From Phocaeicola massiliensis B84634 = Timone 84634 = DSM 17679 = JCM 13223 (GTDB taxonomy: Bacteria; Bacteroidota; Bacteroidia; Bacteroidales; Bacteroidaceae), in NCBI RefSeq assembly GCF_000382445.1, contig NZ_KB905473.1, positions 1 through 64,000 on the forward strand: 64,000 nucleotides of DNA, in the 5' to 3' direction. A program made the position numbers and the translations under genes. Within the stretch, counting starts at the first letter, position 1; each line of letters begins with the position of its first letter. The notes beneath the pieces are model-generated. The model worked only from the letters and a program-made list of their open reading frames with translations, was not told the origin of the DNA and searched no databases. Shown one piece after another: positions 30,045 through 51,211 of the stretch.

Positions 30045-30096
30045 TGCGTACTGGAATGGGCACGTTTTCTACACACATGGGCATTAGGCAAAATGC

Positions 30097-30811: not shown

Positions 30812-30824
30812 ACAATCAGCTTTG

Positions 30825-30864
30825 AAGAAAGTCGAGGGAACAACCTCTCTCGGCTTTCTTTTTT
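30825..30864 (+). terminator. Terminator after the 195-aa protein gene
   Basis: Stem AAGAAAGTCGAG (30825-30836) / CTCGGCTTTCTT (30849-30860) with one G-T pair, then TTTT. Confidence 0.8.
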
Positions 30865-30880
30865 AATCGGAACAGAGAAA

Positions 30881-33039: not shown

Positions 33040-33045
33040 CTAAAT

Positions 33046-33106
33046 GGGACAAAATCTCATTTTCTTGCCTTTCTATACCCGATACAGAAATTAAGTAAAA
33101 TGTCCC
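33046..33106. repeat. Structured site A flanking the nested cassette
   Basis: Starts AATGGGACAAA (from 33043) and ends TGTCCC (33101-33106), 61 nt from GGGACA to TGTCCC. Inside, ATTTTCT pairs loosely with AGAAAT. The right half, CAGAAATTAAG...TGTCCC, matches the right half of site B (35789-35850) at 17 of 22 positions. It begins seven bases after the helicase-like gene stop. Confidence 0.6.
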
Positions 33107-33522
33107 TATCAACCTTAATAACTAATGAAACAGAGTAATTTTCGTACTAACTAATAATATACAGTCGCAGGAAATTCTTGCGGCTTTTATTTTTGGCGCA
33201 GAACCACAACCGCACATTTTCCCCGGTTTCGATTTTCTGAATATTCCCACTTTAGGCAGAGTTATATAGCACCTACTTTATAATAAGCCACATACAGCTA
33301 ATACCATTAAAAAGACTACCTTTTAAAGAATCACCTATATTCAGTTTGGCTAAAAGTCAAGAGAGCAGATATATAAGGTACTTAATACAGAAAGCCCCCT
33401 CCCCATTCAGTCAGTAAGCTAAAATATATAAGAGTGTCTGCCTTTGCGGACCACAACCTCCAATAGTCCCCCTCTGTACATTGATATAAAAAGAATTATT
33501 AATCATTTAAACTTTTATCAAT
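33107..33522. other. Non-coding stretch at the left of the nested cassette
   Basis: No supported gene. A hairpin AGTCGCA (33163-33169) / TTGCGGCT (33178-33185) followed by TTTTATTTTT is a probable terminator of the helicase transcript. TAATATACAGT at 33154-33164 recurs at 35859-35869, just beyond site B. The remainder is AT-rich with a short CT-rich patch near 33390; the DUF3871 promoter must lie here, but I see no full consensus. Confidence 0.5.
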
Positions 33523-34539
33523 ATGAGAAATTTAGTTATCATGCCAACAGAGAACAGAGAGAGAATGAATTTAGGTGAGTTTGCAGAAGAAGCAACCATT
33601 ATTGAAGAAACTGCAACACCTAAAAGGGTAAATCATTTCATTGAGGCAAACACCCAAGAAGCTACCTTGCAACATTTGAAAAATGACTGCATTACTCCCG
33701 TTTTTGCAAAAGACAATGAGCTTACAGTAAACCATGCTGCATTTATTGAAACTGTTTGGGAAGCTGCAAACTCCTACTACAATGGTGAGACTATTGGAAC
33801 ACCCGATATTCGTGTTAGTCATGTGATTAAGGGTCGCATTCCCGAAGCTATCCACAAACCTGCCAATCAGTTGTTGGAATCAGACAAAACAATCTACTAT
33901 GAGAGGGCAGCTTTCAGTATTGACATTCCTACAATCTATGAAACGGTTGAGGAAAACAAGTTGAACCTTTCAATAGTAGGGGTTAGAGCCTATAACCAAA
34001 TGAATCTGTATTCAAAGAAAGTTCCAGAGTTGTTTAGGTTGGCTATTGGCTTTAAAAACCAAGTTTGTTGCAATATGTGCATCTTTACAGACGGTTACAA
34101 GGATGATTTAAGAGTGAGCAATACAAGTGAACTTTACCGTTCTGCCTTGGAACTGTTCAACAACTACAATCCTGCCAAACATCTGTATCTGATACAACAG
34201 TTGGGCAATACCTCAATGAGTGAGCATCAATTCTGCCAAATATTGGGTAAAATGAGACTTTATCAGTGTTTGCCCAATGGCTACCAAAAGAGACTGCCAA
34301 GAATGTTGCTTACTGATACACAAATAAACAGTGTTGCAAAAGCCTACATTAATGATGAGAACTTTGGCAGCTTTGGAAATGACTTGAATATGTGGAAATT
34401 TTATAATTTGCTCACTGGAGCAAATAAAAGTTCATATATTGATTCATTCTTAGACCGCTCTTTAAATGCTACTGAAATGGCAGTTGGAATTAATGCAGCC
34501 TTGCATGGGGATGAGCATTACAAATGGTTTATTGACTAA
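33523..34539 (+). CDS. DUF3871 family protein
   Basis: 338 aa, soluble. It has the features of DUF3871, a family found almost only in Bacteroidales mobile elements: FIEANTQEATLQHLKNDCITPVF near residue 40, then GVRAYNQMNLYSKK and FKNQVCCNMCIFTDGYKDDLRVSN. Function unknown. Some phage and plasmid members sit near replication or recombinase genes, as here. ATG 33523 follows an AT-rich leader; an ATG at 33541 is an alternative. Terminator repeats follow the gene. Confidence 0.8.
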   Translation: MRNLVIMPTENRERMNLGEFAEEATIIEETATPKRVNHFIEANTQEATLQHLKNDCITPVFAKDNELTVNHAAFIETVWEAANSYYNGETIGTPDIRVSHVIKGRIPEAIHKPANQLLESDKTIYYERAAFSIDIPTIYETVEENKLNLSIVGVRAYNQMNLYSKKVPELFRLAIGFKNQVCCNMCIFTDGYKDDLRVSNTSELYRSALELFNNYNPAKHLYLIQQLGNTSMSEHQFCQILGKMRLYQCLPNGYQKRLPRMLLTDTQINSVAKAYINDENFGSFGNDLNMWKFYNLLTGANKSSYIDSFLDRSLNATEMAVGINAALHGDEHYKWFID

Positions 34540-34545
34540 TTAATG

Positions 34546-34578
34546 AGAGGACATCTATTTATTAGGTGTCCTTTCTTA
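34546..34578 (+). terminator. Terminator after the DUF3871 gene, copy 1 of a duplicated sequence
   Basis: AGAGGACATC (34546-34555) / GGTGTCCTTTCT (34565-34576). The whole block, including the preceding TAATG, is repeated at 34885-34922 with one extra T. Confidence 0.75.
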
Positions 34579-34609
34579 TCTATTTTACAAACCTTTTAAA
34601 TAATGAGAT

Positions 34610-34882
34610 ATGGAATTACAAGAAAGCCGTGAATATAAGGCTGCAAAAGAATTGGAAAGAGCTTTGAATGATATGAGTTGGAATCCTCAAAAATTTGCTG
34701 AAAGTACAAGATATTATCACCGTACATTACAGCAGGAATTAATGAAAACCATTGTGGCAATCATTAAAATGGTTGGTGATAAGGGGTACAGAACAGACCT
34801 TAGAAATCAAGCCTCACATGAACTTTGCAGAAAGATTATTGACAGTGGGGTATTGGATGATTGTTACTTGCCTTTTATATGA
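34610..34882 (+). CDS. Small uncharacterised protein of the nested cassette
   Basis: 90 aa, helical and charged, without membrane segments. No family recognised. It lies between two copies of the same terminator block, as though the unit 'gene plus terminator' had been added or duplicated as a piece. Start ATG 34610 follows a TAATGAG stretch. Confidence 0.6.
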   Translation: MELQESREYKAAKELERALNDMSWNPQKFAESTRYYHRTLQQELMKTIVAIIKMVGDKGYRTDLRNQASHELCRKIIDSGVLDDCYLPFI

Positions 34883-34889
34883 TGTAATG

Positions 34890-34927
34890 AGAGGACATCT
34901 ATTTATTTAGGTGTCCTTTCTTTTTTA
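34890..34927 (+). terminator. Terminator copy 2
   Basis: AGAGGACATC (34890-34899) / GGTGTCCTTTC (34910-34920), then a run of T to 34927. It is nearly identical to 34546-34578. Confidence 0.75.
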
Positions 34928-34948
34928 TTCACTTAAAAATACTACAAA

Positions 34949-35074
34949 ATGGAAGATAATGGAAAATTGATTTTATGGGGTACATTGGTAGTTATACTAC
35001 TGATAATAATTGGCATCATTAATCCCTTTTTGCTGATACTGATTATCACTATCTTTACTTATCTGCAATCTTAG
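34949..35074 (+). CDS. Very small membrane protein, 41 aa
   Basis: The frame starts MEDNGKLILWGTLVVILLII and continues with a second hydrophobic run to a stop at 35072-35074, giving one long or two short membrane helices and almost no soluble part. It follows a terminator and precedes a large hairpin. Comparable tiny hydrophobic ORFs occur in mobile elements, but there is no family assignment, and an accidental frame cannot be excluded. Confidence 0.45.
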   Translation: MEDNGKLILWGTLVVILLIIIGIINPFLLILIITIFTYLQS

Positions 35075-35090
35075 TTACACTTTCTAATAG

Positions 35091-35150
35091 AAGTGAAAGT
35101 AATTTGAGAATCAAGCTATTACAAAATGATTCCCGAATTAACTTTCACTT
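35091..35150. repeat. Long imperfect hairpin before the small recombinase gene
   Basis: AAGTGAAAGT (35091-35100) pairs with ACTTTCACTT (35141-35150), and inside it GAATCA pairs with TGATTC, leaving a loop of about 13 nt. It ends 30 bp upstream of the recombinase ATG. It could terminate the upstream transcript (TTATAG follows) or be a regulatory or recombination site. Confidence 0.55.
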
Positions 35151-35180
35151 TTATAGTCAAACCTACAAAATTGAAACAAC

Positions 35181-35774
35181 ATGAGTTTGAAAAACAGCTA
35201 TACAACAAGTGACTGCCTACAATGGGACAGTGCTACAAACTTGGTGAGAAAATTATATAGGGATAAGAATTATAGAATAAGCCTGCTTGTTGGGTGTGGC
35301 ATATTTTTTGGTTTACGCATCTCTGACCTACTACAACTTACTTGGGAAATGCTTTTGAGTAAGGATGCAAAGTTTACCATTACTGAAAAGAAAACAAGCA
35401 AACGTAGGGAAGTGAGAATTAATAAGGAGTTTCAGAAGCATATCAAAGACTGTTATACAGCTTTGAATATTCAAAACTTGAATGAGTTCTGTTTTTTATC
35501 GGGAAAAGGTAAGAACAAGGTCTATTCTATCCAATGGATAAACATTGTACTTAAAGAGCTGAAAAGCAAGTACAATTTAAAGATAGACCACTTTTCTACC
35601 CACTCACTTAGAAAGACTTTTGGCAGAAAAGTATTTGAATCCTCTGAAAATGCTGAATTGGCTTTAGTTAAACTGATGGAATTATTTAATCATTCAAGTG
35701 TAACCATAACTAAAAGATACTTGGGACTTAGACAAGAAGAACTGTTAAATACTTATGACTGTTTGAGTTTCTAA
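35181..35774 (+). CDS. Minimal tyrosine recombinase (catalytic domain only)
   Basis: 197 aa, about half the usual integrase length: no arm-binding domain and almost no core-binding domain. All catalytic positions are present: R46 in GLRISD, K70/K71 in the beta-hairpin EKKTSKRR, H141 and R144 in HSLRKTFG, H171 in FNHSS and Y180 in KRYLG. This makes it likely to be active. It is the last gene before site B, so it is the natural candidate for acting on sites A and B. Confidence 0.85.
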   Translation: MSLKNSYTTSDCLQWDSATNLVRKLYRDKNYRISLLVGCGIFFGLRISDLLQLTWEMLLSKDAKFTITEKKTSKRREVRINKEFQKHIKDCYTALNIQNLNEFCFLSGKGKNKVYSIQWINIVLKELKSKYNLKIDHFSTHSLRKTFGRKVFESSENAELALVKLMELFNHSSVTITKRYLGLRQEELLNTYDCLSF

Positions 35775-35788
35775 CTACTGCTTGGAAT

Positions 35789-35850
35789 GGGACAAAGTTT
35801 GAAATTTCTGTTGTTATCATACCATTTTCAGAAATAAAGAACTTTGTCCC
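35789..35850. repeat. Structured site B flanking the nested cassette
   Basis: An 11-bp perfect outer stem (GGGACAAAGTT 35789-35799 / AACTTTGTCCC 35840-35850), a 4x4 internal loop, then a 7-bp inner stem (ATTTCTG / CAGAAAT) and an 18-nt terminal loop. It shares AATGGGACAAA at its left edge and most of its right half with site A. It starts 15 bp after the recombinase stop. As a terminator it would be unusual, since no T-run follows. Confidence 0.65.
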
Positions 35851-36236
35851 GTTCTCTAATATACAGTAACTTTCAAAAACTGCAATGTAAGAGAAACTGT
35901 AAATGATGGTTATATCTAAATCTGATAGGGCATAGTTCCAAGCCAAACAGATTGCGATAACGTAATTAGCCCTACATTAATGCAAGCGTAAGAAAATTAT
36001 CTTTTTAAAAAGGCATAATACGGCTTGTAGTTTATGGTATGTGCGATTTTGGGAACTGCTTATATGCCGTATCAATCTACTAATTATTTAGCTATGCTAT
36101 AAAATAATTTCTGAATTATGCAAATATCTGCAAAGTGCTGAAATGCAGTCTGTTTTGATAATCCAAATTAAACATATAGCTTTGCAGTGTCCGTTTACAA
36201 AATCCCATTTATTTAATCATTTAAAATTTATCAGCT
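35851..36236. other. Non-coding stretch, possible structured leader
   Basis: No supported gene. Inverted repeat ATACGGC (36018-36024) / GCCGTAT (36066-36072), with neighbouring GGCATA / TATGCC, could fold. No complete TTTG-N19-TAnnTTTG promoter was found, though the next gene must be transcribed from here or from upstream. Confidence 0.4.
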
Positions 36237-36737
36237 ATGAGTAATCTTAAAACTTACTTCAAGAAAAGTGTGTCCGTATGTAAGAAAAGCTCTGCCTATA
36301 TAAGAGCGATACCCGTTCTTGCAAAAGCACTATATCATGCAATGGTGGGTAATGGAAATTATAAGGTATCATTTACCAAAATAGGACGAAAATGGTACTG
36401 CAATGTTCCGGGTTTTCCCAAAGAGCTGTTTGAACATACTCTGATGGTTGGTGGTGCATCCAACTATCTTGAATATTACTCTCGTGGAGAAAATGAGATT
36501 GTGGCTACTATCAGAATTGCTAAAGAATGGGAAGATAAGTTTTATTGCGGAGTTAGATTATATAAGGTAAGTTCCACCTTAACGGGTGGTGCTTTCTATA
36601 AAGACCCAAGCGGAAATTTTGGTGAAGAACTTTGGCTTTGTCCCGTTACCCTATTCTTATTGGGCAAATACCCGAAACTAATCTTTATCTATAAGATTAA
36701 CAAGAACTACCTGCATTGTCCCATCTGTATTGAGTGA
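36237..36737 (+). CDS. Uncharacterised island protein, 166 aa
   Basis: A basic helical N-terminus (1-35) is followed by a compact beta-rich domain: KIGRKWYCNVPGFPKELF...LMVGGASNYLEYY...GEELWLCPVTLFLLGKYP. This pattern resembles DUF6717-type proteins, but I cannot be sure. No signal peptide or enzyme motif. The C-terminus ends CPICIE. It may be a toxin, an effector or a structural protein; context gives no lead. Confidence 0.6.
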   Translation: MSNLKTYFKKSVSVCKKSSAYIRAIPVLAKALYHAMVGNGNYKVSFTKIGRKWYCNVPGFPKELFEHTLMVGGASNYLEYYSRGENEIVATIRIAKEWEDKFYCGVRLYKVSSTLTGGAFYKDPSGNFGEELWLCPVTLFLLGKYPKLIFIYKINKNYLHCPICIE

Positions 36738-36823
36738 TTGAGCAAATTTATCCTCACAGATACCGCTATAATTGCAAATGAATCATTAATTTTGTGGTCT
36801 AATTAACTAAAAACACAATAGAT

Positions 36824-37090
36824 ATGGAAGATATGTTCTCTTTAGGCAATGTTGGATTGTGGAGAATGGCAAACAATGGCTATATATCACTAACTGGAGA
36901 GGTGGGTGAATTATTTATTGCCAAAATTTTAGGAACTATCATTCTTAAATTGAAATATAAAGATATTGTTTACGCAGTTTCAAAAAACGCAAATGAAAGA
37001 TATTTTAGAGTACCAACCTCGGAAGGTGGATATTTCTTCTACTTTGACAGCTTTAATGAATTAAAAGAGACTATTGAAAAGAATAAATAA
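36824..37090 (+). CDS. Uncharacterised small protein, 88 aa
   Basis: No family recognised. Soluble, with a hydrophobic stretch FIAKILGTIILKLKY that is probably a buried strand or helix. It has its own 5' region and a good terminator right behind it (37107-37135). Confidence 0.55.
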   Translation: MEDMFSLGNVGLWRMANNGYISLTGEVGELFIAKILGTIILKLKYKDIVYAVSKNANERYFRVPTSEGGYFFYFDSFNELKETIEKNK

Positions 37091-37106
37091 CAATCTGATT
37101 TTTTTT

Positions 37107-37135
37107 AAAGTTCGCAGTATTTGCGGACTTTTTTT
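37107..37135 (+). terminator. Terminator after the 88-aa protein gene
   Basis: Stem AAAGTTCGCA (37107-37116) / TGCGGACTTT (37122-37131), followed by TTTT. Confidence 0.8.
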
Positions 37136-37400
37136 ATACCCATTATGAAGATAGATACTTCTTTCATTCATTACTTAGTTAGGCAACAAACCCATATACC
37201 TTATAATCTCTAATAGAACTACATCTTTCAATCCGCAGAAACTACGGGTACTTTTTTCGGGAAGAAATCTTCTTATAGTCCCCATTCAAAAAAAGTACCT
37301 GCTTATGCTATTACAAAGAAAAGAAGCTGAATACTTCTCTAATTACTTACTAAAGATATGCTTTAGAACATTTAGAACTGCATTTATCAGCGTTTTATCT

Positions 37401-37431
37401 TTAGCTATTCAAAACCTTTCGCTAACTTTGC
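37401..37431 (+). promoter_or_regulatory. Probable promoter of the 37761-39779 gene cluster, long leader
   Basis: TTTA (37401-37404, one mismatch to TTTG), 19 bp, then TAACTTTG (37424-37431). The first gene follows about 330 bp later. The stretch between 37136 and 37760 has no supported gene; the leader contains TTTCAG...CTGAAA (37438-37474) and could be structured. Confidence 0.6.
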
Positions 37432-37760
37432 AACAATTTCAGAGGTCTTAATGCGTTAAGGCACTGAAAGGACATATTTAACGAAAAGGTGTTATTGAGA
37501 TTATCTTCTTTTTCTCAAATTCTCGCAAAATTTGAAAGACTGTGAAGATGATAGCAATAGCACCACACCATTTGATATATACCTACCTTATATCCATAAG
37601 GCTCTTAGATATTGTCAAAATTGGTGTGGGTTGCTATTGTTTTATCCACAGTCAAGGCAATGCGAGAAGCCAGAGAAAAAGGGTAAAGCAAATAATAGTT
37701 CCCACACCTTATTTTTTATCCACTTCTTCGGGGAATTGGGAAGTACAATATTAGTGAGTA

Positions 37761-38231
37761 ATGAAAAAGATTATTTCAATTTTAGCTTTTACAGTACTGC
37801 CAACAATTGCTTATTCACAACTTCCATTAGTTGAATACAAACCCGTAATAGTTGGCAAAAACAATAACAACAGTAGCAACGAACATAACCGTAGCAATAA
37901 TAACGGGTATTTTCCAAACGTACCTTCATATTCCACTCCTAACCGTTCTACCACACAAAGCTATCAGACTGTAGGAGCATACTTCTTTGATGCAAGTTCA
38001 CAAAATTTCAAAAGAACAAAAATCAAAATCAATTTAGGAGAATCTTATTCGGGAGAAACTGAAATCTATGTTCGGGCTGTATTAGACCGTTCTTTATATA
38101 GAGAAAGTTGGAGAGATTGTAATAACAGAGCTGTTAGGGTCAATGCTTTATTAGACAAAGAAATTATAGTGAACAACTTTGAATGGAAAGTAGAGCATAC
38201 AACTTTGGGTACTATTTACTTTAACTACTAA
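37761..38231 (+). CDS. Secreted Asn/Ser-rich protein of an envelope cluster
   Basis: 156 aa with a signal peptide (MKKIISILAFTVLPTIAYS, cleavage after residue 19). Residues 35-70 are a low-complexity Asn/Ser/Thr/Pro linker; residues 75-156 form a compact domain with two strands and a conserved-looking WRDCNNRAVRVNALLDKEI. No known family. First of four genes with spacing of 11, 1 and 6 bp, so it belongs to one operon. Confidence 0.65.
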   Translation: MKKIISILAFTVLPTIAYSQLPLVEYKPVIVGKNNNNSSNEHNRSNNNGYFPNVPSYSTPNRSTTQSYQTVGAYFFDASSQNFKRTKIKINLGESYSGETEIYVRAVLDRSLYRESWRDCNNRAVRVNALLDKEIIVNNFEWKVEHTTLGTIYFNY

Positions 38232-38242
38232 TTGTTGAAATT

Positions 38243-38761
38243 ATGAGAACTTTTATTTTACTACTGCTTACCTTATACTTTGCTCCCATATATAGTGTAA
38301 ATATGGGAAATGACAGTGATATTTTTATGAACAGATTGTCTGTAAACCAAGAATTTCAAGGCAATTTTTCATATAAATATGGTATGCGCAAAATTGATAA
38401 GGAATTATATATACACAATTTAGGAACTAATGTTCAATCCTATGTTGCAAGTAAGAATTGGAATGAATATAAACGTGAGGAATTTAGAAATGCGTATGAA
38501 AGGTATATGGACGCATTGAAAAAAGACAGACTTTCAGCTGATGATTTTGGAAACATAACAGATTCTAAAGGAGAATTAGGCAATGTTGATGGGGATGATT
38601 ATTGGTACGATAATAAAGGAAATAGAATAAGTGGTGCGGAGTACAGAGCTTTAAGTGTACGCAAACAAAAGAAGTATCGGGCTTTTTATGCCAATAAAGA
38701 AGTTGTCACATATTTCAATGAGATTGCTAAGGCTATAGTAAACAGAAGATATTCTGACTAA
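38243..38761 (+). CDS. Secreted protein of the envelope cluster, 172 aa
   Basis: It has a signal peptide (cleavage near PIYS, residue 18). The mature part is charged and helical, with a short Gly/Asp-rich turn GELGNVDGDDYWYDNKGNR that could bind a cation; this is a visual impression only. No family recognised. Its stop is one base from the start of the next gene. Confidence 0.65.
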   Translation: MRTFILLLLTLYFAPIYSVNMGNDSDIFMNRLSVNQEFQGNFSYKYGMRKIDKELYIHNLGTNVQSYVASKNWNEYKREEFRNAYERYMDALKKDRLSADDFGNITDSKGELGNVDGDDYWYDNKGNRISGAEYRALSVRKQKKYRAFYANKEVVTYFNEIAKAIVNRRYSD

Positions 38762-38762
38762 G

Positions 38763-39545
38763 ATGAAAACATATCTATTCGATACCATAAACCGATACAA
38801 AAGATTCAGTGAGAATCTTGATGTAAAGACTGTCTTATGTAATAAATCATGGATGGTTTTTAATAATTCGGGGGAGAAAGAAACTTATATATTCCAAGAA
38901 AGCGGAATTTTAATTATTTCTCTTAATGGTAAAGTAACGAATGCTACGTGGCAATATATCCCAGCTAATAAATCTCTTATAATTAGCGGAAATGAACAAT
39001 CTTATATGGTACACGCTGCCTATGTGGATAATATACTTTTTGTTTTACAAGTAGATGGCACAAAAGAATGTGCTTTTTTAATTGACGAAAATAACAGACA
39101 AAATTTCCAGCCTAAATCATATAATGATATTAAAAAACATTTTGAGGTTAAAGAACAGAAGCTGTTGCAAAAACAGACAACTGAATATTTAAAAACTGAA
39201 AGTTTAGTTAAACAAAAAGAGAAAGAAAGGAAAGCAAAAAGAAGAAAAGAGGAAAAAGAGAAAAGAATAGAACAATTACGATTTAAAGCTGATGGAATAA
39301 GACATGTAAATGGATGGATGCAAATTTTTATATTCGTAGTGTCATGGATACTATTTTCTATATTAGTGTCTATAGTATGTTCATTTGAAAAAACCCCTTG
39401 GCTTGTTGCGATTCTATTACCTCTTATTGGTGGTCCATGTTTTGTTTTCTTTATACCATGTTATATGATAACATTAATTAAGAATAAGAAAGTGAAAGAT
39501 TGGAAAAAGAAATATCCCAATGATGCAGTTAATCAATATCTATAA
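38763..39545 (+). CDS. Coiled-coil membrane protein of the envelope cluster
   Basis: 260 aa: a beta-rich N-terminal domain (1-120), a highly charged coiled-coil (about 125-180, KEKERKAKRRKEEKEKR) and two C-terminal membrane helices (about 188-212 and 218-242). No signal peptide, so the N-terminal domain should be cytoplasmic with the helices anchoring it to the inner membrane. No family recognised. It is tightly packed between its neighbours. Confidence 0.65.
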   Translation: MKTYLFDTINRYKRFSENLDVKTVLCNKSWMVFNNSGEKETYIFQESGILIISLNGKVTNATWQYIPANKSLIISGNEQSYMVHAAYVDNILFVLQVDGTKECAFLIDENNRQNFQPKSYNDIKKHFEVKEQKLLQKQTTEYLKTESLVKQKEKERKAKRRKEEKEKRIEQLRFKADGIRHVNGWMQIFIFVVSWILFSILVSIVCSFEKTPWLVAILLPLIGGPCFVFFIPCYMITLIKNKKVKDWKKKYPNDAVNQYL

Positions 39546-39551
39546 AATCTT

Positions 39552-39779
39552 ATGAAATACTACAGAGTTAACATTGAAGATTACAAAATAGGCATTTCCT
39601 GTGGAAATAATATGCCAACAAAAGAGTTCCTGAACAATCAAGTTCATGAATTTCTAAAATCTCAAAAAGTGAATATAAATAGGGATGAGACTTTTAAGTT
39701 TCAAGATTCTAATGAAAAGGAATTTGAAGATTTGAAACGTGAAGTAGCATTAAGTTCTAATTTTAAAATGAGATATTAG
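39552..39779 (+). CDS. Small soluble protein of the envelope cluster
   Basis: 75 aa, charged, no signal or membrane segment; no family recognised. It starts six bases after the previous stop and is the last of the four-gene run; the PBP-like gene begins 24 bp further on. Confidence 0.55.
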   Translation: MKYYRVNIEDYKIGISCGNNMPTKEFLNNQVHEFLKSQKVNINRDETFKFQDSNEKEFEDLKREVALSSNFKMRY

Positions 39780-39803
39780 ATTCGACTTATTCATTCAAAC
39801 GCT

Positions 39804-40667
39804 ATGTTGAAAACCTACCTTACAGTATTAGTTAGCTTATTAGTAGCTTGCAGCCCTGCCAAACAAAATACAAAACAAGTATCTACCATAGACAGCACTT
39901 TACAAGTAAGAGTTGATTCTATCCTGCAAAACAAGCTGTCCGAACTTAATGCTACGGTAGGGCAAGTTATTATAATGGAAGTACGGACGGGAGAAATTAA
40001 AGTTTCTGTTGGTTCTGATTCTATTCTGCAAGAATCGGGATTGGTACGTACCGCTTCACTTTTGGCAGTATTGGAAACAAAGGCAGTCAAACTATCCGAT
40101 ACGATAGATGTTGGTAATGGCATTTTAGCCATTGGTAAAGATACATTGTACGACCATAATTGGCATAGGGGTGGATATGGGAAAATCACAGTGGAACAAG
40201 GCTTCGAACTTGCATCCAATATCGCCACCTACAAAGTAGCGAGAAAGGCATTTGAGAACGGACAAGCCTTTTCGGAAGCACTTGCAAAGTATGGCTATCA
40301 AGTGAAAGACACAAGTCTTGTTTATAATCCTTTGGGATATGGCATTCTCACCACTCCATTACAGAACTTGACTTTCTTTAATTACATAGCTAAAAGTAAG
40401 ACTGCCATAAAAGAAGCATTGGAATACTCTGTTTCTAATGGATTAGCCAAGCCTGCCCAATCAGATAGAGTAAAAGTAGCTGGAGCAACGGGAACAATTC
40501 AACTTCCGAACGGTGAATATGCAGTAGAATTTTGCGGTTACTTCCCTGCCGATAATCCGAAATACAGTGTTATCGTTACCATTAATAAGACAGAATTACC
40601 TGCAAGCGGTGGACTGATGGCAGGTGATGTTTTTAGGCAGATTGTTGATATTATGAATGAAAGATAA
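39804..40667 (+). CDS. Lipoprotein with penicillin-binding transpeptidase fold, catalytic residues lost
   Basis: 287 aa. Lipoprotein signal with C16 (LLVAC). From about residue 52 the order of PBP2/FtsI transpeptidase features can be followed, but each motif is changed. The SxxK site reads LVRT (80-83, in ESGLVRTASLLAVLE), the SxN site reads ASN (137-139, in ELASNIATYKVA) and KTGT reads ATGT (228-231, in VAGATGTIQ). It therefore cannot acylate as a normal PBP. It may bind peptidoglycan or a beta-lactam without turnover, or act as a decoy or scaffold. The transpeptidase-like domain is shorter than usual (about 235 residues), and no transglycosylase or dimerisation domain is present. Confidence 0.75.
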   Translation: MLKTYLTVLVSLLVACSPAKQNTKQVSTIDSTLQVRVDSILQNKLSELNATVGQVIIMEVRTGEIKVSVGSDSILQESGLVRTASLLAVLETKAVKLSDTIDVGNGILAIGKDTLYDHNWHRGGYGKITVEQGFELASNIATYKVARKAFENGQAFSEALAKYGYQVKDTSLVYNPLGYGILTTPLQNLTFFNYIAKSKTAIKEALEYSVSNGLAKPAQSDRVKVAGATGTIQLPNGEYAVEFCGYFPADNPKYSVIVTINKTELPASGGLMAGDVFRQIVDIMNER

Positions 40668-41419
40668 TGAGAAGATTGCTATTTATCATTATTGGGCTAC
40701 TTAGTTTAGCGGCTTGCAAAACAGACAAAACACCAGTTCCGCAGGATTTTGAATGTTTCAACCAACCACGAGTTTTTATCAAGTACAAACAGCCAATAAA
40801 CGGATATACGGTAAAAGCAATGTGGCTACCTTATGTTGCCCAAGACGGAACGACTGGAGAAACAGGAATAACTACACTTCTACATTTTAAGAATGCTGAT
40901 AACGAGTTTAGCATAAACTTAGAAGCAAAGCATATTATTGATACACTTTGTTATCATTATCCGAATTTAAAAGACGGTGATGTGCTTTATTGGGACTACG
41001 CACAAAAAGGCAGCAATGAAGTGTTGCCTAATTATGCCCCATTCTCCTTTTATGATGTGGACTTTGACGGTGAAGAAGAATTGTTGATAACGGACTATCA
41101 AAGCGGCTCATACTCCAACAATACTTATAAGGTTTACAAGATACATGAATATTATGCAGAGTTAATGACAGGCGAGCCGTTTGATTACTTGGAAACTTCC
41201 GCAAAGTTTGATTCTATCAACAAGCGCATTATAACAACAAGCACAGGCGGACAAGGCAGTATTTATATATATACTTACCAACTGAAAGAATATGAAACAA
41301 TGTACGGTGACAGACCTACGACCATTTCCAAATTTGAGTTGGTGAAAGCTGATATAATAGATGATAAAGGACACAGGGTTTATCTACGGAAAGGAGATAA
41401 GTTAGAATTAGAAGACTGA
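40667..41419 (+). CDS. Lipoprotein with FG-GAP-like calcium motif
   Basis: 250 aa. Lipobox LAAC (C17). The body is beta-rich, with DVDFDGEEELLI around residue 126, the Asp-rich signature of FG-GAP/VCBS-type repeats that bind Ca2+. The start overlaps the stop of the PBP-like gene (TAATGA), so the two are translated together and probably sit in the same envelope layer. Substrate or partner unknown. Confidence 0.7.
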   Translation: MRRLLFIIIGLLSLAACKTDKTPVPQDFECFNQPRVFIKYKQPINGYTVKAMWLPYVAQDGTTGETGITTLLHFKNADNEFSINLEAKHIIDTLCYHYPNLKDGDVLYWDYAQKGSNEVLPNYAPFSFYDVDFDGEEELLITDYQSGSYSNNTYKVYKIHEYYAELMTGEPFDYLETSAKFDSINKRIITTSTGGQGSIYIYTYQLKEYETMYGDRPTTISKFELVKADIIDDKGHRVYLRKGDKLELED

Positions 41420-41435
41420 ATACATAATAAATTAG

Positions 41436-41443
41436 TATATTTG
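41436..41443 (+). promoter_or_regulatory. -7 box upstream of the macro-like gene
   Basis: TATATTTG matches TAnnTTTG; a -33 TTTG at the right distance is not present. Its position supports ATG 41474 rather than 41441 as the start of the next gene. Confidence 0.5.
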
Positions 41444-41473
41444 CATATAGACCCCACATTAATATTTAAGAAG

Positions 41474-42142
41474 ATGAAAATCAATGTTATTAAATTTGAA
41501 ACAATCAATGGAAAGAAAGTAGGAAAAGCATTTTCATTTCCAATGGATGCAAAGAAAATGGCTCGTTATAAAACAGAAGCTACCGTAAGAAAAAAGGTGG
41601 AGGAATATGTTGCTAAAAGCGGCTTATTCAAAAAGAACGAACTAAATGAACTCAAATATGACATGACCGACTTCTTACAAGAATGGAAAAAACAGAAACC
41701 CATTGTGGAAGCTGAAATGCTAAAGGAACTGGAAGCCTCAACCAATGCAGGAAACAGAATAACACCTGAACACATCAATCGTCTTGGAACTAATGAAGTT
41801 TTCGTTTTTGGTTCTAATGCAAGAGGATTGCATCATGGAGGTGCTGCCAAAGTCGCTGTTGAAAGTTTTGGTGCTGTCATGGGACAAGGGCATGGATTGC
41901 AAGGGAAAAGTTATGCTATCAATTCCATGAGCGGCATTTCTGAAATGGAGAAAGATATAAAGTTGTTCTGTGAGTTTGCAAAATCGAATCCACAGAAACA
42001 TTTCCTTGTAACTCCCATAGGTTGTGGTATTGCAGGTTTTAGCCCTAATGATGTCGCCCCATTATTTAAAAAGTGTGCAATTTTGAATAACGTATCACTT
42101 CCTCGTTCTTTTTGGCAAATAATAGGGTATCCAAAGGAATAA
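41474..42142 (+). CDS. Macro-like / A1S_2505-like phage-type protein
   Basis: 222 aa. Residues about 95-220 show EVFVFGSNARGLHHGGAAKVAV...GQGHGLQGKSYAINSMSG...HFLVTPIGCGIAGF, the arrangement of proteins known from phages and mobile elements as A1S_2505-type or macro-domain-like, with Gly-rich loops suited to ADP-ribose or nucleotide binding. The N-terminal 90 residues are charged and helical. ATG 41474 was chosen because the promoter box lies at 41436-41443. Possible role: removal of ADP-ribose or of an ADP-ribose-derived signal; this is inferred from the fold class. Confidence 0.7.
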   Translation: MKINVIKFETINGKKVGKAFSFPMDAKKMARYKTEATVRKKVEEYVAKSGLFKKNELNELKYDMTDFLQEWKKQKPIVEAEMLKELEASTNAGNRITPEHINRLGTNEVFVFGSNARGLHHGGAAKVAVESFGAVMGQGHGLQGKSYAINSMSGISEMEKDIKLFCEFAKSNPQKHFLVTPIGCGIAGFSPNDVAPLFKKCAILNNVSLPRSFWQIIGYPKE

Positions 42143-42198
42143 AAATTCATGCAGAATTATTTAGTAAAAGATTCTTCTGAAAAATGGGCATATAATAT

Positions 42199-42630
42199 AT
42201 GACGAAAGACGAGATTAGAACAAGAGAAGATTTTATTAATCTTTATGCTTTACATCTTGGACTTGACAGATTCATTGAAGCACAAGATAAGTGGAATACT
42301 TATCAAACTGCCTTGGAAGAAGTCAAAGCAGGGAAGAAGAGAACACATTGGATTTGGTTTATCTTTCCTCAAATGGAGGGACTTGGCACAAGTGAAAAGT
42401 CTCGTTACTACGGAATACGTGGGCGTAATGAAGCTATTGAATATATCAACCATCCTATATTGAGAGATAGGTTAGTTGAAATCACAGAAGCGGTCTATAA
42501 TAATGAGAAATCAGTTTACGAGATATTTGGAAACGATGTAATTAAAGTAAGGTCTTGTATGTTACTTTTTGCATCTGTTTCTGATATTCCTATCTTTCAA
42601 AAGATGCTTGAAAAGCATTGCTGGAGATAA
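42199..42630 (+). CDS. DUF1810 family protein
   Basis: 143 aa. FIEAQDKWNTYQTALEEVKAG, KRTHWIWFIFPQMEGLG and YGIRGRNEAIEYINHPILRDRL are the conserved blocks of DUF1810. The C-terminus ends at CWR, about ten residues earlier than is usual (a D-x-x-T-L-x-L-type ending is missing); the +1 frame continues only briefly, so a small truncation or frameshift is possible. Function unknown. It follows the macro-like gene by 56 bp, and the pair may act on NAD/ADP-ribose compounds. Confidence 0.85.
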   Translation: MTKDEIRTREDFINLYALHLGLDRFIEAQDKWNTYQTALEEVKAGKKRTHWIWFIFPQMEGLGTSEKSRYYGIRGRNEAIEYINHPILRDRLVEITEAVYNNEKSVYEIFGNDVIKVRSCMLLFASVSDIPIFQKMLEKHCWR

Positions 42631-42647
42631 AATTCTCATATAATAAC

Positions 42648-42685
42648 AAAAGCCAACCTACCCAATTACGGACAAGTTGGCTTTT
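42648..42685. terminator. Bidirectional terminator
   Basis: Perfect 10-bp stem AAAAGCCAAC (42648-42657) / GTTGGCTTTT (42676-42685). It lies between the DUF1810 stop and the end of a small - strand ORF. Confidence 0.85.
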
Positions 42686-42705
42686 CAGTTCTGAACACTT
42701 AATCA

Positions 42706-42810
42706 TTAACATCTTTTCTTGGACTTCATTATAGGAACAAGTCCAATAGTAGAGAAATAGTTTCGCATTATTTCTCTGTTTCCAATTGGTTTCTTTATCA
42801 ATTTCTTCAT
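42706..42810 (-). CDS. Small basic ORF, 34 aa, with consensus promoter
   Basis: Encodes MKKLIKKPIGNREIMRNYFS... ending KSKKRC, a strongly basic peptide (8 Lys and 3 Arg). On the - strand, TTTG (+ strand 42866-42869), exactly 19 bp, and TATGCTTG (42839-42846, one mismatch to TAnnTTTG) lie about 30 bp upstream of the start, and the gene ends 20 bp before a terminator. No family assigned. The promoter and terminator make it more likely to be real than its size suggests. Confidence 0.5.
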   Translation of the reverse strand: MKKLIKKPIGNREIMRNYFSTIGLVPIMKSKKRC

Positions 42811-42838
42811 AACTCTAAATTTTAGAATTTCACATATA

Positions 42839-42869
42839 CAAGCATACACATAGATATATAAAAGTCAAA
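42839..42869 (-). promoter_or_regulatory. Promoter of the 34-aa ORF
   Basis: TTTG-N19-TATGCTTG read on the - strand; only one base differs from the Bacteroides consensus. Confidence 0.6.
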
Positions 42870-42978
42870 GCCAAGCGTGAATGAAAATGGAATATTGTTT
42901 CTAATCATGCGAATATGTCTTTTATGCCATATATTAAAATTTTGTCAGTACATTCTATCTACATTATACGGAGTTGAT

Positions 42979-42986
42979 TATCTTTG
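42979..42986 (+). promoter_or_regulatory. -7 box of the ORF6N gene
   Basis: TATCTTTG, 20 bp before the ATG at 43007; no TTTG is present at the -33 position. Confidence 0.5.
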
Positions 42987-43006
42987 CGCTACAAAAGATT
43001 TAATCA

Positions 43007-43579
43007 ATGGAACAATTACAAGTAATTCAAAGCAAGATATATGAAATCAGAGGTCAGAAAGTAATGCTCGACCGTGATTTGGCAGAAATGTACGGAGTGC
43101 AAACAAAAGCATTGAATCAAGCCGTAAAACGCAATATAGACCGTTTCCCCGAAGATTTTATGTTTCAACTGACAAGCGAAGAAACACAAAAATGGAGGTC
43201 ACAGTTTGTGACTTCCAATTCCATCAAGATGGGAGTTAGGCGCAACCCTTATGCGTTCACTGAATTAGGAGTAGCCATGCTAAGTAGCGTGCTGAACTCC
43301 AAAACTGCCATTCAAATAAATATGGGTATTATGCGTGCTTTTGTCGCTGTTCGCCAAATGATAGCATTGCCTAAAACAGACCAACTAACAGAGTTGCAGA
43401 ATGAGGTAAAAGAGTTGAAAGACTATATAGAAGAAGTGTTCGCTGATTACAACGATATTAATGATGATACACGGATGCAGTTGGAACTTATCAATCAGAC
43501 ATTGGCAGAACTACAAGTCAAGAAGAAATTGGAAGAAAAGCCACGCAGAAGAATCGGATTTATACAGCATGATGAATAA
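43007..43579 (+). CDS. ORF6N-domain DNA-binding protein
   Basis: 190 aa. Residues 8-95 form the ORF6N domain: [43 protein letters not shown] and [17 protein letters not shown] are close to its consensus. This domain occurs in phage and mobile-element regulators, often with antirepressor-type functions. The C-terminal half is a coiled-coil ([18 protein letters not shown]). As the last gene before attR it may control island genes or excision. Confidence 0.9.
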
Positions 43580-43718
43580 TCTGATTCTGTCAAGCACGAG
43601 ATTTTATAAAAACTATAATACTTCCACGCAAGTAAAAAAAGTGATTGAAGAACTACAAATATATATTATAATTATTGCATAACAGTACAACATTAGCTAC
43701 CTTTGCATCAGGAACGAA

Positions 43719-43741
43719 TGTTTACCGCTGGTTTACCGATA
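43719..43741 (+). repeat. Right GTTTACCG double repeat
   Basis: Same 23-bp block as 27583-27605 with one mismatch (CTG instead of CTT between the two GTTTACCG units). A TACCTTTG box lies just upstream at 43698-43705. Confidence 0.65.
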
Positions 43742-43784
43742 CGTTCTTATAAGAGTTCATTAATTGGTATGCAAACGCTTTAAA

Positions 43785-43892
43785 AGACTTGTTGCTCAGT
43801 TGGTTACACACGATAAATCCGCAGGATTTAACGTGCTTGGCAACAGACTCATAATCTGGAGGTCCCTGGTTCAAGCCCAGGCTGGTCCACAA
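43785..43892 (+). other. tRNA-Met-like sequence with a hairpin in the D-loop, joined to attR
   Basis: 43785-43806 repeats the first 22 nt of the tRNA-Met gene with two mismatches (start A for G, and T for A at tRNA position 9). Where the tRNA has GA, this copy has 33 nt (43807-43839) containing a 27-nt hairpin: CACG/CGTG and AAATCC/GGATTT with loop GCA. The sequence then continues into the exact 53-bp att core. A TAnnTTTG box at 43698-43705 could transcribe it. As a tRNA it should not work, because the D stem partner is displaced. It is inside the island, so it would be part of attP in the circular form. Confidence 0.7.
43840..43892 (+). repeat. attR, 53-bp direct repeat
   Basis: Identical to 27417-27469. 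The chromosome resumes at 43893. Confidence 0.95.
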
Positions 43893-43893
43893 T

Positions 43894-43945
43894 AAAGATT
43901 CCTAATAGATTGTTATTCAGTAGTTTGTTAGGAGTCTTTTTTATT
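43894..43945 (+). terminator. Terminator, probably the original one of the tRNA-Met gene
   Basis: AAAGATTCCTAA (43894-43905) / TTAGGAGTCTTT (43928-43939), then TTTTATTT. Before integration this would have followed the tRNA 3' end directly. Confidence 0.75.
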
Positions 43946-44777
43946 TGTGTCAACAGAATGTCAATCAAGCCGCTTTTAACTATCCGATTTTATCTTACTT
44001 ACGCAACTGTTAATAATGGCTCAGTAGATATATCATCTATTACAGTGAGTTCTTTCTCTATCTGATACCATGCCACTTCCATTTTTTTCTGTTTAGAGGT
44101 ACGCCATTTCATAAAGTACAAGTCCTCACTTTGTCGAGTTCTCATTTGTAATGACAAAGTTGTGCTCTTACCAAGCGATAGGGTCTGATGCAATCCAACT
44201 TAGAAACAGTTTGTTTGTGAAATGTGGTATTTCTCCGTTTTTTCTTCTACTTGATGTCATAGATAATCATTTAATCTTCGGTTGACCGTGAAGTATTCCA
44301 CCGGACAATGCTTTTGTTTCTTCCTTTATTGATGAAAGTGAATTTTCTCTTAACCACGGTCGTAGCTAACGTTAACCACCCCTGTGACTAACTCTAACCA
44401 CCCGGGTGGGCAGGCTTAACCACGGACGTGGTTAAGCAATCGCAACCTGCTTTCCATCAAGCTATGTATTTGCTCTATAAGGACGGGCATTACTTGCTTT
44501 TTATTGATGGACTTATTGGAAGTATGTAGACAGGACAGGGATACCGATGGTTGTACCTATGAAATTTTCACTGATGCTGTATTTGTTCAGTCACTAATCG
44601 TAACTTGATATGGTTACGTGCATGGTTGACACACATCATCTGTGTGACTAATATATGTATTCCTTTACATAATATATTGGGAAACAGATAAATTAGCATT
44701 TCTACTCTTTTTCTATTTTATATATTGAAGGTTGGTTTAAAGCCACATCGGATGGGGAAGTTTATGTAATTATATAA
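43946..44777. other. Degraded, mostly non-coding region
   Basis: On the - strand, several short readable pieces occur in different frames and are broken by stops (for example KKQVMPVLIEQIHSLMESRL near 44510-44450, and a 64-codon frame at 44193-43999). This suggests a decayed gene rather than regulatory DNA. I do not recognise the original product. It contains the palindrome array at 44349-44437. Confidence 0.4.
44349..44437. repeat. Four degenerate tandem palindromes based on TTAACCAC...GTGGTTAA
   Basis: The unit TTAACCAC occurs at about 22-25-bp spacing four times. The last copy (44415-44436) is a perfect palindrome with arms CTTAACCACG / CGTGGTTAAG around GA, the third contains CCACCCGGGTGG, and the first two have degraded right halves. 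It could be an operator array or decayed repetitive coding sequence. Confidence 0.45.
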
Positions 44778-44795
44778 AGTTCCTGTAGAACTAAG
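44778..44795. repeat. Left inverted repeat of the invertible promoter segment
   Basis: AGTTCCTGTAGAACTAAG; its reverse complement is found perfectly at 45074-45091. Its core AGTTC-CTGTA-GAACT is itself a palindrome with a 5-nt centre. Confidence 0.85.
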
Positions 44796-44824
44796 TATAT
44801 CTTATGGCTTTTGTATACTGGGTG

Positions 44825-44832
44825 CAAATATA
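44825..44832 (-). promoter_or_regulatory. -7 box inside the invertible segment
   Basis: TATATTTG on the - strand, followed by CACCC, the usual context of Bacteroides start sites. At the -33 position the - strand reads CTTT, a poor match to TTTG. Confidence 0.6.
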
Positions 44833-45073
44833 TAAATTTTTTAAGATATAAAAAGAAATGGAGAGATATTTTTATAAAAAAGAACTAATTATATAAAATA
44901 GAGCGTCAAATAGGTTAGTTTTATACAAATAAAACATTTTTTTCTCTCTTCCATTTACCATTATTAAACTATATCTCGATAGAATATAAGTAGAATATGG
45001 GTAGAATGAATCAATATATACTCTCTCAATATATCATAAATCGGTCCGTTTGCAATATGGAATATTTACGTTT

Positions 45074-45091
45074 CTTAGTTCTACAGGAACT
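45074..45091. repeat. Right inverted repeat of the invertible promoter segment
   Basis: CTTAGTTCTACAGGAACT, the exact reverse complement of 44778-44795; 155 bp before the susC ATG. Confidence 0.85.
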
Positions 45092-45246
45092 AAGAAAGAT
45101 GGTTATAACATCAAGTTTAAGTTAAAATATTAGCTTAAAGTAGAGTTAAAATATGAGTATAAACTGATTCGACAAATGATGTGTTAGCCGTTTTATGGGA
45201 AATAAATGACATTGATTATTTATTAACATAAAATTTAGAGAGTATT

Positions 45247-48413: not shown

Positions 48414-50333
48414 ATGAAAAAGTTTAATCAAATATTTATTGTAGCGGCTTGTATGCTTTTGGGCATTTTGTCTTCTTGTAGTTACTTGGATGTCGTTCCT
48501 GACGAAAAGGCGACAGAAAAAGATGCATTTGAAGATAAGGATGCTGCTAAACGCTTTGTTTATTCGTGCTATGCATATATCCCTAATCCCAGAAGTGGTA
48601 CAGGTTCATTGGACCTCTTTACCTCCGATGAAGTGGTAACGGCATTTGAGCATGAAACATTTGCTGCTTTCCCTAAAGGTAATTATTCTGCGTCTAATCC
48701 GGTTATCTCTTATTGGAATTCTTTGTTTCAAGGTATCAAGCAATGCTATATCTTACTGAACAATATCGATATGGTTCCTGCACTGGAGGCTTCTATTAAG
48801 GCAGATTATATTGCCCAGGCCAAGTTCTTGATAGCTTATTATCATTTCTTGCTGGTACGTAACTATGGACCGGTTATTTTGGTTAAGGAGGAACCGTCGC
48901 TTACTACTCCTGCTGATCAATATGCGGCACGTTCGCCTTATGATGAATGTGTGGACTATGTTTGTCAGATGTTTGATGAAGCTGCTGCTGAACTTCCCGC
49001 AACTCGTATCAATGAGAACTACGGACTGGCTACAAGTGTGGCTGCCAAAGCGTTGAAGGCAAGAATGTTACTGTATGCTGCTTCTCCGTTGTTTAATGGA
49101 AACAGCGAATTCTATTCCAGCTTTGTCAATAAAGACGGAACGGCGTTGATGCCTCAAGCATACAGTGCTGAGAAATGGCAGAAGGCTAAGGTGGCTTATG
49201 AAGAAGCTATTCGTGCGGCAGAAGGAGCCGGACACAGTCTTTATACCAGTACCGACTATATGTTGGACGGATATGATAATGCAGAACCGGCCGACCCCGT
49301 GCAGCACAGATTGCGTTACACCATCATCGAGCCCGCCAACACAGAAGTGATTTGGGCAGATTGCCGTTCAGAAGGTGCCTACAGCGTTCAGAACAAGTCC
49401 CTTCCATTCTGTAATGGTTCTGCTTACAATGGTGTGTCTCCTACTCTTGCCATGTTGAAACGTTTTTATACCAAGAACGGACTTCCTGTGGATCAAGACC
49501 CTGAGTTCCCGAAAGGTAACAGTATTTATGAAGTGACTGCTTTGGGTGAAGAAAATGCCACTATTGGTGACCCGGAAGCAAAGACTATCCGTTTCAACTT
49601 AAATCGTGAGCCTCGTTTTTATTCATGGGTTGCTTTCCAGGGAGGATTTTATGAAATCATGAGTGCGTCAGACGGTAACGGAGCTTATCAGAACGATGAG
49701 AGCTATAATAAATACAGTGACTCCGGTCGAGGAAAATTGGTATGTGATTTTGTGATAGGCGGTAATACTTCTCGTCAGCCGGCAGGAAGCAGTTTGCGTA
49801 CTAATAACTATTCACCTACCGGTTATCTGAATAAAAAGGGAGTAGTTCCCGGTTACAATGTACGTACTTCTTTATACTATCCACCGTTCTATCCATGGCC
49901 TGTCATCCGTTTGGCTGAGCTTTATTTGGGGTATGCCGAGGCTTGTGTGGAATGTAATGATTTAAATACAGCAAAAACTTATTTGGACAAAGTGCGTACT
50001 CGCGCCGGTATACCTACGGTAGAAACATCATGGAATGGCATTGCTACGTTGGATCAGGCCAAACTGCGTGAGATTGTTCGTCAGGAACGTACCATTGAGT
50101 TCTATTTGGAAAATCAGACTTTCTGGGACTTGCGCCGTTGGAAACAGGCAGCAGAATATTTTGGCGTGAAGGCCAAAGGTATGAATATTGCAGGTAAGAC
50201 TATAGATGAGTTTGCACAAGAAACAGAAGTGTCTTTTGAACGTAAGTTTGAAAGTCCGACTCAATATTTAATGCCTGTTCCTTTGACAGATGTCAACCGT
50301 AACATGAATCTGGTTCAAAATCCTGGTTATTAA
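48414..50333 (+). CDS. SusD/RagB-family surface lipoprotein
   Basis: 639 aa. Lipobox LSSC (C22), then SYLDVVPDEKATEKDAF, the usual SusD N-terminus. The TPR-like helical region and the C-terminal RQERTIEFYLENQTFWDLRRWK motif are clear. SusD forms the lid over the SusC channel and binds the ligand at the surface. The substrate cannot be predicted: there are no glycoside hydrolases or peptidases in the operon. Confidence 0.96.
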   Translation: MKKFNQIFIVAACMLLGILSSCSYLDVVPDEKATEKDAFEDKDAAKRFVYSCYAYIPNPRSGTGSLDLFTSDEVVTAFEHETFAAFPKGNYSASNPVISYWNSLFQGIKQCYILLNNIDMVPALEASIKADYIAQAKFLIAYYHFLLVRNYGPVILVKEEPSLTTPADQYAARSPYDECVDYVCQMFDEAAAELPATRINENYGLATSVAAKALKARMLLYAASPLFNGNSEFYSSFVNKDGTALMPQAYSAEKWQKAKVAYEEAIRAAEGAGHSLYTSTDYMLDGYDNAEPADPVQHRLRYTIIEPANTEVIWADCRSEGAYSVQNKSLPFCNGSAYNGVSPTLAMLKRFYTKNGLPVDQDPEFPKGNSIYEVTALGEENATIGDPEAKTIRFNLNREPRFYSWVAFQGGFYEIMSASDGNGAYQNDESYNKYSDSGRGKLVCDFVIGGNTSRQPAGSSLRTNNYSPTGYLNKKGVVPGYNVRTSLYYPPFYPWPVIRLAELYLGYAEACVECNDLNTAKTYLDKVRTRAGIPTVETSWNGIATLDQAKLREIVRQERTIEFYLENQTFWDLRRWKQAAEYFGVKAKGMNIAGKTIDEFAQETEVSFERKFESPTQYLMPVPLTDVNRNMNLVQNPGY

Positions 50334-50347
50334 TAAAATAAATAAAG

Positions 50348-51211
50348 ATGAAAAATACATTTAAATATTATGCCGGAATGCTCCTGATTGGAGTTACCTT
50401 GGCAAACATCAGTTGCAGCAGTGATGAAGATGGGATTACACCGGCCGAAATCACAAACTTGACAGCAGAAAGTACTTCCGGGCGCATTGTACTTCGTTGG
50501 GATACTCCTGAAGATGCCGGTATCCGTTATATTGAAGTGAACTATTACGACCCATTGCAGAAAAAAGATGTTATGCGTACTGCAAGCATTTATGCAGATA
50601 GTATTGAAATACCAGATACACGTAAGAAGTTTGGCGAGTATCAGTTCTCGGTACAAACAGTAAGCCCTACAGGTGATAAGAGTGCGGTTCAAACTATCTC
50701 AAAGGTTTCGGAGCCGGCATTGCCTACTTTTGTGAGTACACAGATAGCTTTGACTGCTGCTGACTTGAGTACGAATGCGCAGGAGCCGACTGAAGGACCT
50801 ATTGCTAATCTGCTGGATGGCAATACCGGCACTTTTTTCCATACGGCATGGAGTGTCAATATACCGGCTCCTCATTGGATGCAGGTTAACTTGAAAGAAG
50901 AAATAACAGGTTCCTATAAGTTCTATTATGCACCTCGTAATAACGGCAGTAATAAACCGACTGATTTTGATTTGATGGGTAGCACGGATGGTACCAACTG
51001 GTTCCTTATCCGTAACTTCACTAAGGATGCAGATGGACTACCGGTTACTTCTACGGGTACATTTACTTCTGAGATTTATGATGCACCGCAACCATTCAGT
51101 CAAATCCGAATGGTAGTTAATGCTACTAATACGAGTAGTATTTTCTGGACAATGTCCGAATTTAAATTTTATTCGGTTTCTGTGACGGATCCTGAAGCCG
51201 CTGATGAATAG
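50348..51211 (+). CDS. Surface lipoprotein with Fn3-like and discoidin (F5/8C) domains
   Basis: 287 aa. Lipobox ANISC (C23). Residues about 33-120 look like a fibronectin-III/DUF4959 domain (ITNLTAESTSGRIVLRWDTP). Residues about 140-280 look like an F5/8-type-C discoidin domain (NLLDGNTGTFFHTAW...WMQVNLKE), a common carbohydrate-binding fold. It lies 14 bp behind susD and probably serves as the surface glycan-binding protein of this locus. A terminator follows. Confidence 0.85.
   Translation: MKNTFKYYAGMLLIGVTLANISCSSDEDGITPAEITNLTAESTSGRIVLRWDTPEDAGIRYIEVNYYDPLQKKDVMRTASIYADSIEIPDTRKKFGEYQFSVQTVSPTGDKSAVQTISKVSEPALPTFVSTQIALTAADLSTNAQEPTEGPIANLLDGNTGTFFHTAWSVNIPAPHWMQVNLKEEITGSYKFYYAPRNNGSNKPTDFDLMGSTDGTNWFLIRNFTKDADGLPVTSTGTFTSEIYDAPQPFSQIRMVVNATNTSSIFWTMSEFKFYSVSVTDPEAADE

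Follow-up and report, generated by a model that had tools for sequence, protein, structure and literature searches.

A probable recombinase-driven promoter switch in front of a susC-susD operon of Phocaeicola massiliensis, and the same class of sites in fecR

The stretch of Phocaeicola massiliensis DNA analysed here (64,000 nucleotides, hereafter the window) contains a short intergenic segment between perfect inverted repeats, directly in front of a susC-susD pair, and we hold with high confidence that promoter inversion driven by a recombinase switches this operon, which the assembly has caught in the OFF state. The mechanism proposed is that a site-specific recombinase, probably a tyrosine recombinase, would act on the two AGTTC-N5-GAACT repeats and invert the 278 bp that they enclose; as assembled, the promoter would fire leftward, leaving OFF susC, susD and the gene of a lipoprotein with an F5/8 type C domain, and after inversion the -7 box would stand 210 bp upstream of the susC ATG, turning the operon ON, so that the cells of one population would differ in an outer-membrane importer. 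We infer the inversion of positions 44796-45073 in the strain itself by analogy with the sister pairs of the genome and from the series of orthologues, and we infer also the transcription, the enzyme and the substrate of the importer.

Results

The features of the locus are collected in Table 1. The two repeats, 278 nt apart, are 18 nt long each and 100% complementary; both contain the palindrome AGTTC-N5-GAACT, with the 5-bp spacer mirrored between the copies. The first-pass annotation, made from the letters of the DNA, had described perfect 18-bp inverted repeats with these cores and this spacing, and its coordinates were right to the base. Chance is a poor explanation of the pair: with arms 30-1000 bp apart, no other exact inverted repeat in the window reaches 16 bp, and among 60 first-order Markov copies of the window there was a single inverted repeat of at least 16 bp and none of at least 18 bp; a pair of at least 16 bp appeared in 12 of 20,000 Markov simulations of the AT-rich intergenic region, and one of at least 18 bp in 4, and AGTTCN5GAACT is present twice in the window against 0.09 expected, none of 100 shuffles having two. 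To the left of the switch, imperfect palindromes with TTAACCAC units occupy the intergenic DNA at 44349-44436 of the window.

Table 1. Features of the putative switch and of the operon behind it (positions in the window)
Feature	Position	Strand	Remarks
Left inverted repeat, putative recombination site	44778..44795	+	AGTTC-CTGTA-GAACT, then AAG
Putative invertible segment, 278 bp	44796..45073		No ORF of at least 80 aa
-7 box TATATTTG	44825..44832	-	5' end 44832; directed away from susC (OFF); weak -33 element
Right inverted repeat	45074..45091	-	Mirror of the left repeat
Leader, right repeat to susC ATG, 155 bp	45092..45246	+	No strict -7 box
susC, SusC/RagA TonB-linked outer membrane protein, 1049 aa	45247..48396	+	No STN domain match
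susD, SusD/RagB lipoprotein	48414..50333	+	Closest solved sequence 7bll
Probable surface lipoprotein, F5/8 type C domain	50348..51211	+	14 bp after susD

Inside the segment there is a -7 box of the Bacteroides form TAnnTTTG (a motif given in PMC4747536), TATATTTG, separated from the left repeat by 32 bp if counted to its 15-bp core and by 29 bp if counted to the end of its 18 bp; no other strict match occurs, on either strand, between a point 300 bp to the left of that repeat and the susC ATG. Being on the minus strand (44832-44825), it agrees with the earlier statement that the start region beside the left repeat faces away from susC, and the prediction that inversion would aim the promoter about 200 bp upstream of the ATG corresponds to a computed 210 bp. 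The annotation had also seen no other good promoter in 45092-45246, which is correct for that interval; to its left, a relaxed scan of 44600-45246 returned two plus-strand sites, both imperfect: TAAATTAG (44689), which is outside the segment, and TAAATTTT (44833), within it and with TTTG at -33. These may provide a weak sense promoter in the assembled orientation. Around the leader Rfam gave nothing at gathering score. On the other side, the ORF list contains no minus-strand ORF of at least 80 aa between 42002 and 44778, the 2.7 kb left of the switch, and for this reason the promoter as assembled drives no visible gene.

Directly downstream of the switch are susC and susD, the product of the first reaching 968 bits against TIGR04056 (cut-off 368) and that of the second 602 bits against 7bll, the best among solved chains. 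The gaps are of 17 bp between susC and susD and of 14 bp between susD and the F5/8 lipoprotein gene, a spacing that suggests that the latter belongs to the same operon. The chain 7bll is the SusD of the BT3013 locus of B. thetaiotaomicron, which is presented as uncharacterised, with a predicted M60-like peptidase, and as upregulated on mucosal glycans (PMC11992087); the two loci are alike in SusD, the M60-like peptidase belongs to the BT3013 locus, and the part of that source available makes no mention of inversion. A host glycoprotein or glycopeptide as substrate of the window operon is a guess. As for the DNA to the left, 27573-44700 of the window could be a mobile island, in which a 438-aa ORF reads as integrase-like (27573-28889), and a 197-aa PF00589 recombinase (35181-35774) and an ORF6N protein (43007-43579) are also found; homology with P. 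faecalis, over the 1.5 kb compared, runs out some 79 bp to the left of the left repeat.

The site is not confined to this locus. In the genome to which the window belongs (G000; 4.65 Mb, 15 contigs) there are 20 AGTTC-N5-GAACT sites against 9 of the reversed control; half of them form five mirror pairs, each 42-155 bp from the start of a susC gene (by TonB-receptor domains), and the remaining 10 are close to the control count. When this genome is set against that of Phocaeicola faecalis FXJYN30E22 (G015), the nearest relative at the locus with a SusC 95% identical, two of the five segments are inverted relative to their flanks and three are in the same orientation (L125/L143, L127/L146 and the window segment). 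In one inverted case (L126/L145) the flanks align on the plus strand at 91 and 94% and the interior on the minus strand at 81%; in the other (L124/L144) the flanks align on the minus strand and the two ends of the interior on the plus strand, one over 86 bp (97%) and one over 76 bp (74%); what remains of L124 reads N. Similarly, the interiors of L155 and L057 are 99.2% identical only if one is inverted, with a right flank 97% identical in the same orientation. Because segments are found inverted between close relatives, the AGTTC site class can be said to invert in nature, and the promoter-inversion reading of the first-pass annotation is strengthened in that the class fronts susC in all five mirror pairs, the two that differ from P. 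faecalis included. In other genomes the site counts against the reversed pattern are noisy, many being near or below the control, and in G006 numerous copies of a single core swell the count.

Two of the sister pairs have peculiarities of their own. On either side of L126 (G000:C1:2904013-2904487) is a susC gene, the two being divergent and identical in their first 85 residues, and L126 therefore would select one of two operons. In L124 (G000:C1:433713-436870) the mirror pair is 3.1 kb apart, against about 0.4 kb in P. faecalis, and the right-hand susC is apparently interrupted by transposase-like ORFs.

The series of orthologues comprises eight loci having a susC at least 72% identical in amino acids (72-100%) and upstream DNA: the window, L046 (P. 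faecalis), L150 (G305), L059 (B. fluxus), L060 and L047 (both MAGs), L048 (B. muris) and L049 (Parabacteroides goldsteinii); L065 (susC 90%), whose contig starts inside susC, was left out. Facing AGTTC-type repeats precede susC in all eight, those of L060 and one of L047 being imperfect palindromes, and a TAnnTTTG box is situated about 31-66 bp from one repeat core. This box is directed away from susC (OFF) in the window, L046, L059, L060 and L150, and toward it (ON) in L047, L048 and L049; where there was a second plus-strand box, the one nearer susC was used in L049, whose other box is farther left, and the one adjoining a repeat in L150. The interiors of ON and OFF orthologues align poorly, and orientation there is read from the position of the -7 box. 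Once flipped, the five OFF boxes would fall at -210, -209, -209, -232 and -220 from the ATG, and this range (-209 to -232) fits two of the three boxes observed ON, -225 in B. muris and -221 in L047, the third being at -287 in P. goldsteinii, the most distant of the set. With five loci OFF and three ON behind facing repeats, comparison supports what had been proposed from the window, namely that the susC operon switches ON and OFF and is OFF as assembled.

In L060 the susC orthologue is split into two frames (L060:5001-8149), the 18-bp repeats are still a perfect mirror, and a divergent 423-aa ORF lies leftward of the OFF promoter. Farther from the window, at 54-67% amino acid identity, there is no perfect AGTTC site in the stretches fetched of six relatives (L050, L052, L053, L054, L056 and L058), and therefore the SusC family as a whole does not share the switch.

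With regard to the enzyme, the window genome has 38 PF00589 matches. The invertase could well be a 407-aa recombinase encoded in G000 contig C6:7043-8263, an assignment that seemed rather probable until the co-occurrence result given below, because of which it is now held tentatively, as somewhat short of probable. The anatomy of its locus (L275, G000:C6:1-13376) is that of a SusC shufflon carrying its own invertase; a 25-bp repeat containing AGTTTTTGCAGAACT marks the edge of a susC match to one side and the contig end to the other, and the local sites of the recombinase are AGTTT-N5-GAACT, one base off. The contig stops inside the far repeat copy, as if the assembly had broken at a site of multiple arrangements. 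At E 1e-30 or better, a cut-off loose enough to admit distant recombinases as well, 59 of 100 genomes have relatives of this C6 type. Among the best 40 loci there is a susC-like gene in 33, a perfect AGTTC site in 13 and none in the other 27, and in 9 the recombinase gene lies between mirror sites; the 345,671 bp of these loci contain 23 AGTTC sites in all, and the reversed control occurs 0 times. Exact inverted repeats of at least 16 bp bracket the recombinase in 11 of 12 loci inspected further, some of which are to be expected from homology alone because divergent susC copies flank the gene. The family is present in six of the seven genomes with AGTTC switches that were tested for it (that of G425 being in fecR), and is missing from G527, which is 84% complete.

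It is also possible, if on the whole unlikely, that the invertase is instead a 195-aa FimB-like recombinase (G000 C1:1856494-1857078, L220). This protein is 95-96% identical in G015 and G305, both of which have a window-type switch, and G004, with 15 AGTTC sites against 3 of the control, carries it and has no member of the C6-type family at E 1e-30; against it, there is no match at E 1e-30 in G065, with its three mirror AGTTC pairs and a five-site cluster, and no AGTTC site in the stretches around L220, L238 and L205. In 60 genomes of the genus, with neither kinship nor genome size corrected for, the excess of sites over the control shows no clear rise with the C6-type family (44 genomes with it, 16 without, p 0.08), is higher with the closest C6-type clade (5 of 60 genomes, p 0.002), and is likewise higher with the FimB-like protein at 72% or more (mean +3.9 in 16 genomes and -0.9 in the 44 without, p 0.002). 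By co-occurrence there is little to choose between the FimB-like protein and the C6-type clade that is closest; location favours the C6 type. The FimB-like recombinase may move horizontally; the XerD-like L131 is only 74% identical to its counterpart in G305, against 95-96% for the FimB-like protein.

The window segment itself has the same orientation in P. massiliensis and P. faecalis, the only two Phocaeicola genomes compared at the locus, and this, together with the weak sense-strand candidate at 44833 and the L060 orthologue, with its broken susC frame and degenerate half-sites, speaks for a segment that was once invertible and is now locked, susC being transcribed from a weak fixed promoter or silent; nevertheless, such a loss is improbable, given that both 18-bp repeats are still perfect and are the same in the two species, around an interior that is down to 79% identity, that two sister switches differ in orientation between these same genomes, and that both candidate recombinases have open frames in the genome of the window. 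That the repeats are paired operators or a structural element, free of recombination, is hardly credible, for although each is palindromic, like operators, segments of the same site class occur in both orientations in close relatives, and the spacer is mirrored in the pairs of the window genome and of G015, which recombination needs and operators do not.

Switching by inversion of a promoter may be only one of the uses of this class of sites. STN-less members such as the window susC have no ECF sigma/FecR sensor alongside, and among more distant relatives (about 55-68% identity) SusCs of the STN type stand behind fecR; in L053 the ECF sigma, FecR and STN-SusC are accompanied by no perfect AGTTC site, and at other STN-type loci the AGTTC site is in fecR, before the membrane helix. 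A survey of fecR took in 20 of 30 candidate loci and 12 others, merged by coordinates (L057 = L176 = L317, L055 = L174 = L319, L155 = L315, and so on); L316 (G566; fecR at a contig edge), L331 (neither class) and L177 (N-terminal part not found) were left out of the counts. In ten of the fecR loci that have one or more perfect AGTTC sites the gene is split, the N-terminal anti-sigma part being on the opposite strand (L057, L055, L318, L320, L323-L326, L344 and L051 are among the split loci), with segments of 380-480 bp, and of 1.1 kb in L344. One AGTTC-bearing fecR, that of G425 (L155/L315), is joined, as are all six full-length fecR genes that have no perfect AGTTC site. In G468 and G476, each with one perfect site, a joined FecR is divergent to a second, truncated FecR half. 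Computed reversal of the segment in L057 or L055 yields a FecR of 313 aa, the length of the joined protein in G425.

Inversion at AGTTC sites would then join or split the FecR anti-sigma factor, and in G468 and G476 it could allow one N-terminal domain to serve either of two divergent FecR halves. We incline, if only slightly, to the view that one site class switches one SusC/D lineage in two ways, through a promoter in the STN-less members and through fecR in those that bear STN, in which case stochastic inversion would have taken the place of sensory control of a nutrient importer, or overridden it.

Discussion

If the promoter switch acts as proposed, it would set which cells expose the importer, a matter relevant to the choice of nutrients, to the adsorption of phages and to recognition by the immune system. 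Regions near SusC/SusD-like systems, together with those near upxY, are given in PMC10939037 as among those that differ most in orientation between IBD patients and controls. The orthologue series offers a rule that can be tested, in the ON orientation and the landing position of the promoter, and two candidate enzymes; the splitting of fecR, if true, would be an apparently new route to a phase-variable sensor system.

The window switch, well supported by comparison, is probably a new member of the known SusC/D phase variation of the Bacteroidales, and the splitting of fecR is the more novel observation. The more interesting part is that one AGTTC site class is found at promoters, between susC genes, in susC shufflons and in fecR. 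Intragenic inversions have reportedly been described by Chanin et al. in 2024. Among the papers listed for anti-sigma factors, FecR and inversion, no title or abstract opening described an inversion that splits fecR, which does not prove absence. The shufflons of B. thetaiotaomicron that are said to diversify nutrient receptors "via a single transcription factor" may be related (PMC12548429).

The SusC shufflon, in which coding segments are exchanged, differs from the window switch, where no coding sequence is moved, there being no ORF of at least 80 aa in the segment and the repeats lying outside susC. We take AGTTC-N5-GAACT to be the consensus of the SusC/D inversion site class of B. fragilis (Tsr0667-type), and the motif string, sought in the literature, gave no match. 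In that species Tsr0667 (Nakayama-Imaohji 2009, as cited in PMC4747536 and PMC11852207) is described as a master recombinase whose targets of inversion are three SusC/SusD clusters and nine further regions, and both simple promoter inversion and inversion of the shufflon type are named in PMC4747536. The inversions of Tsr0667 and the one proposed here share the SusC/SusD cargo, and the window differs in being from Phocaeicola, with a lone promoter switch and a 155-bp leader. By description, a similar likeness exists with inverton group 131, promoter-bearing invertons near SusC/SusD with the Bacteroides promoter motif, in which TonB receptor and RagB/SusD genes are enriched as regulatable (PMC11892184). 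Within Phocaeicola, finally, the invertible upxY promoter of P. vulgatus CL10 has, like the window, a -7 box between inverted repeats, and by the available account both of its orientations are found by PCR; it drives polysaccharide genes (PMC13114119), whereas the promoter in the window would drive susC-susD.
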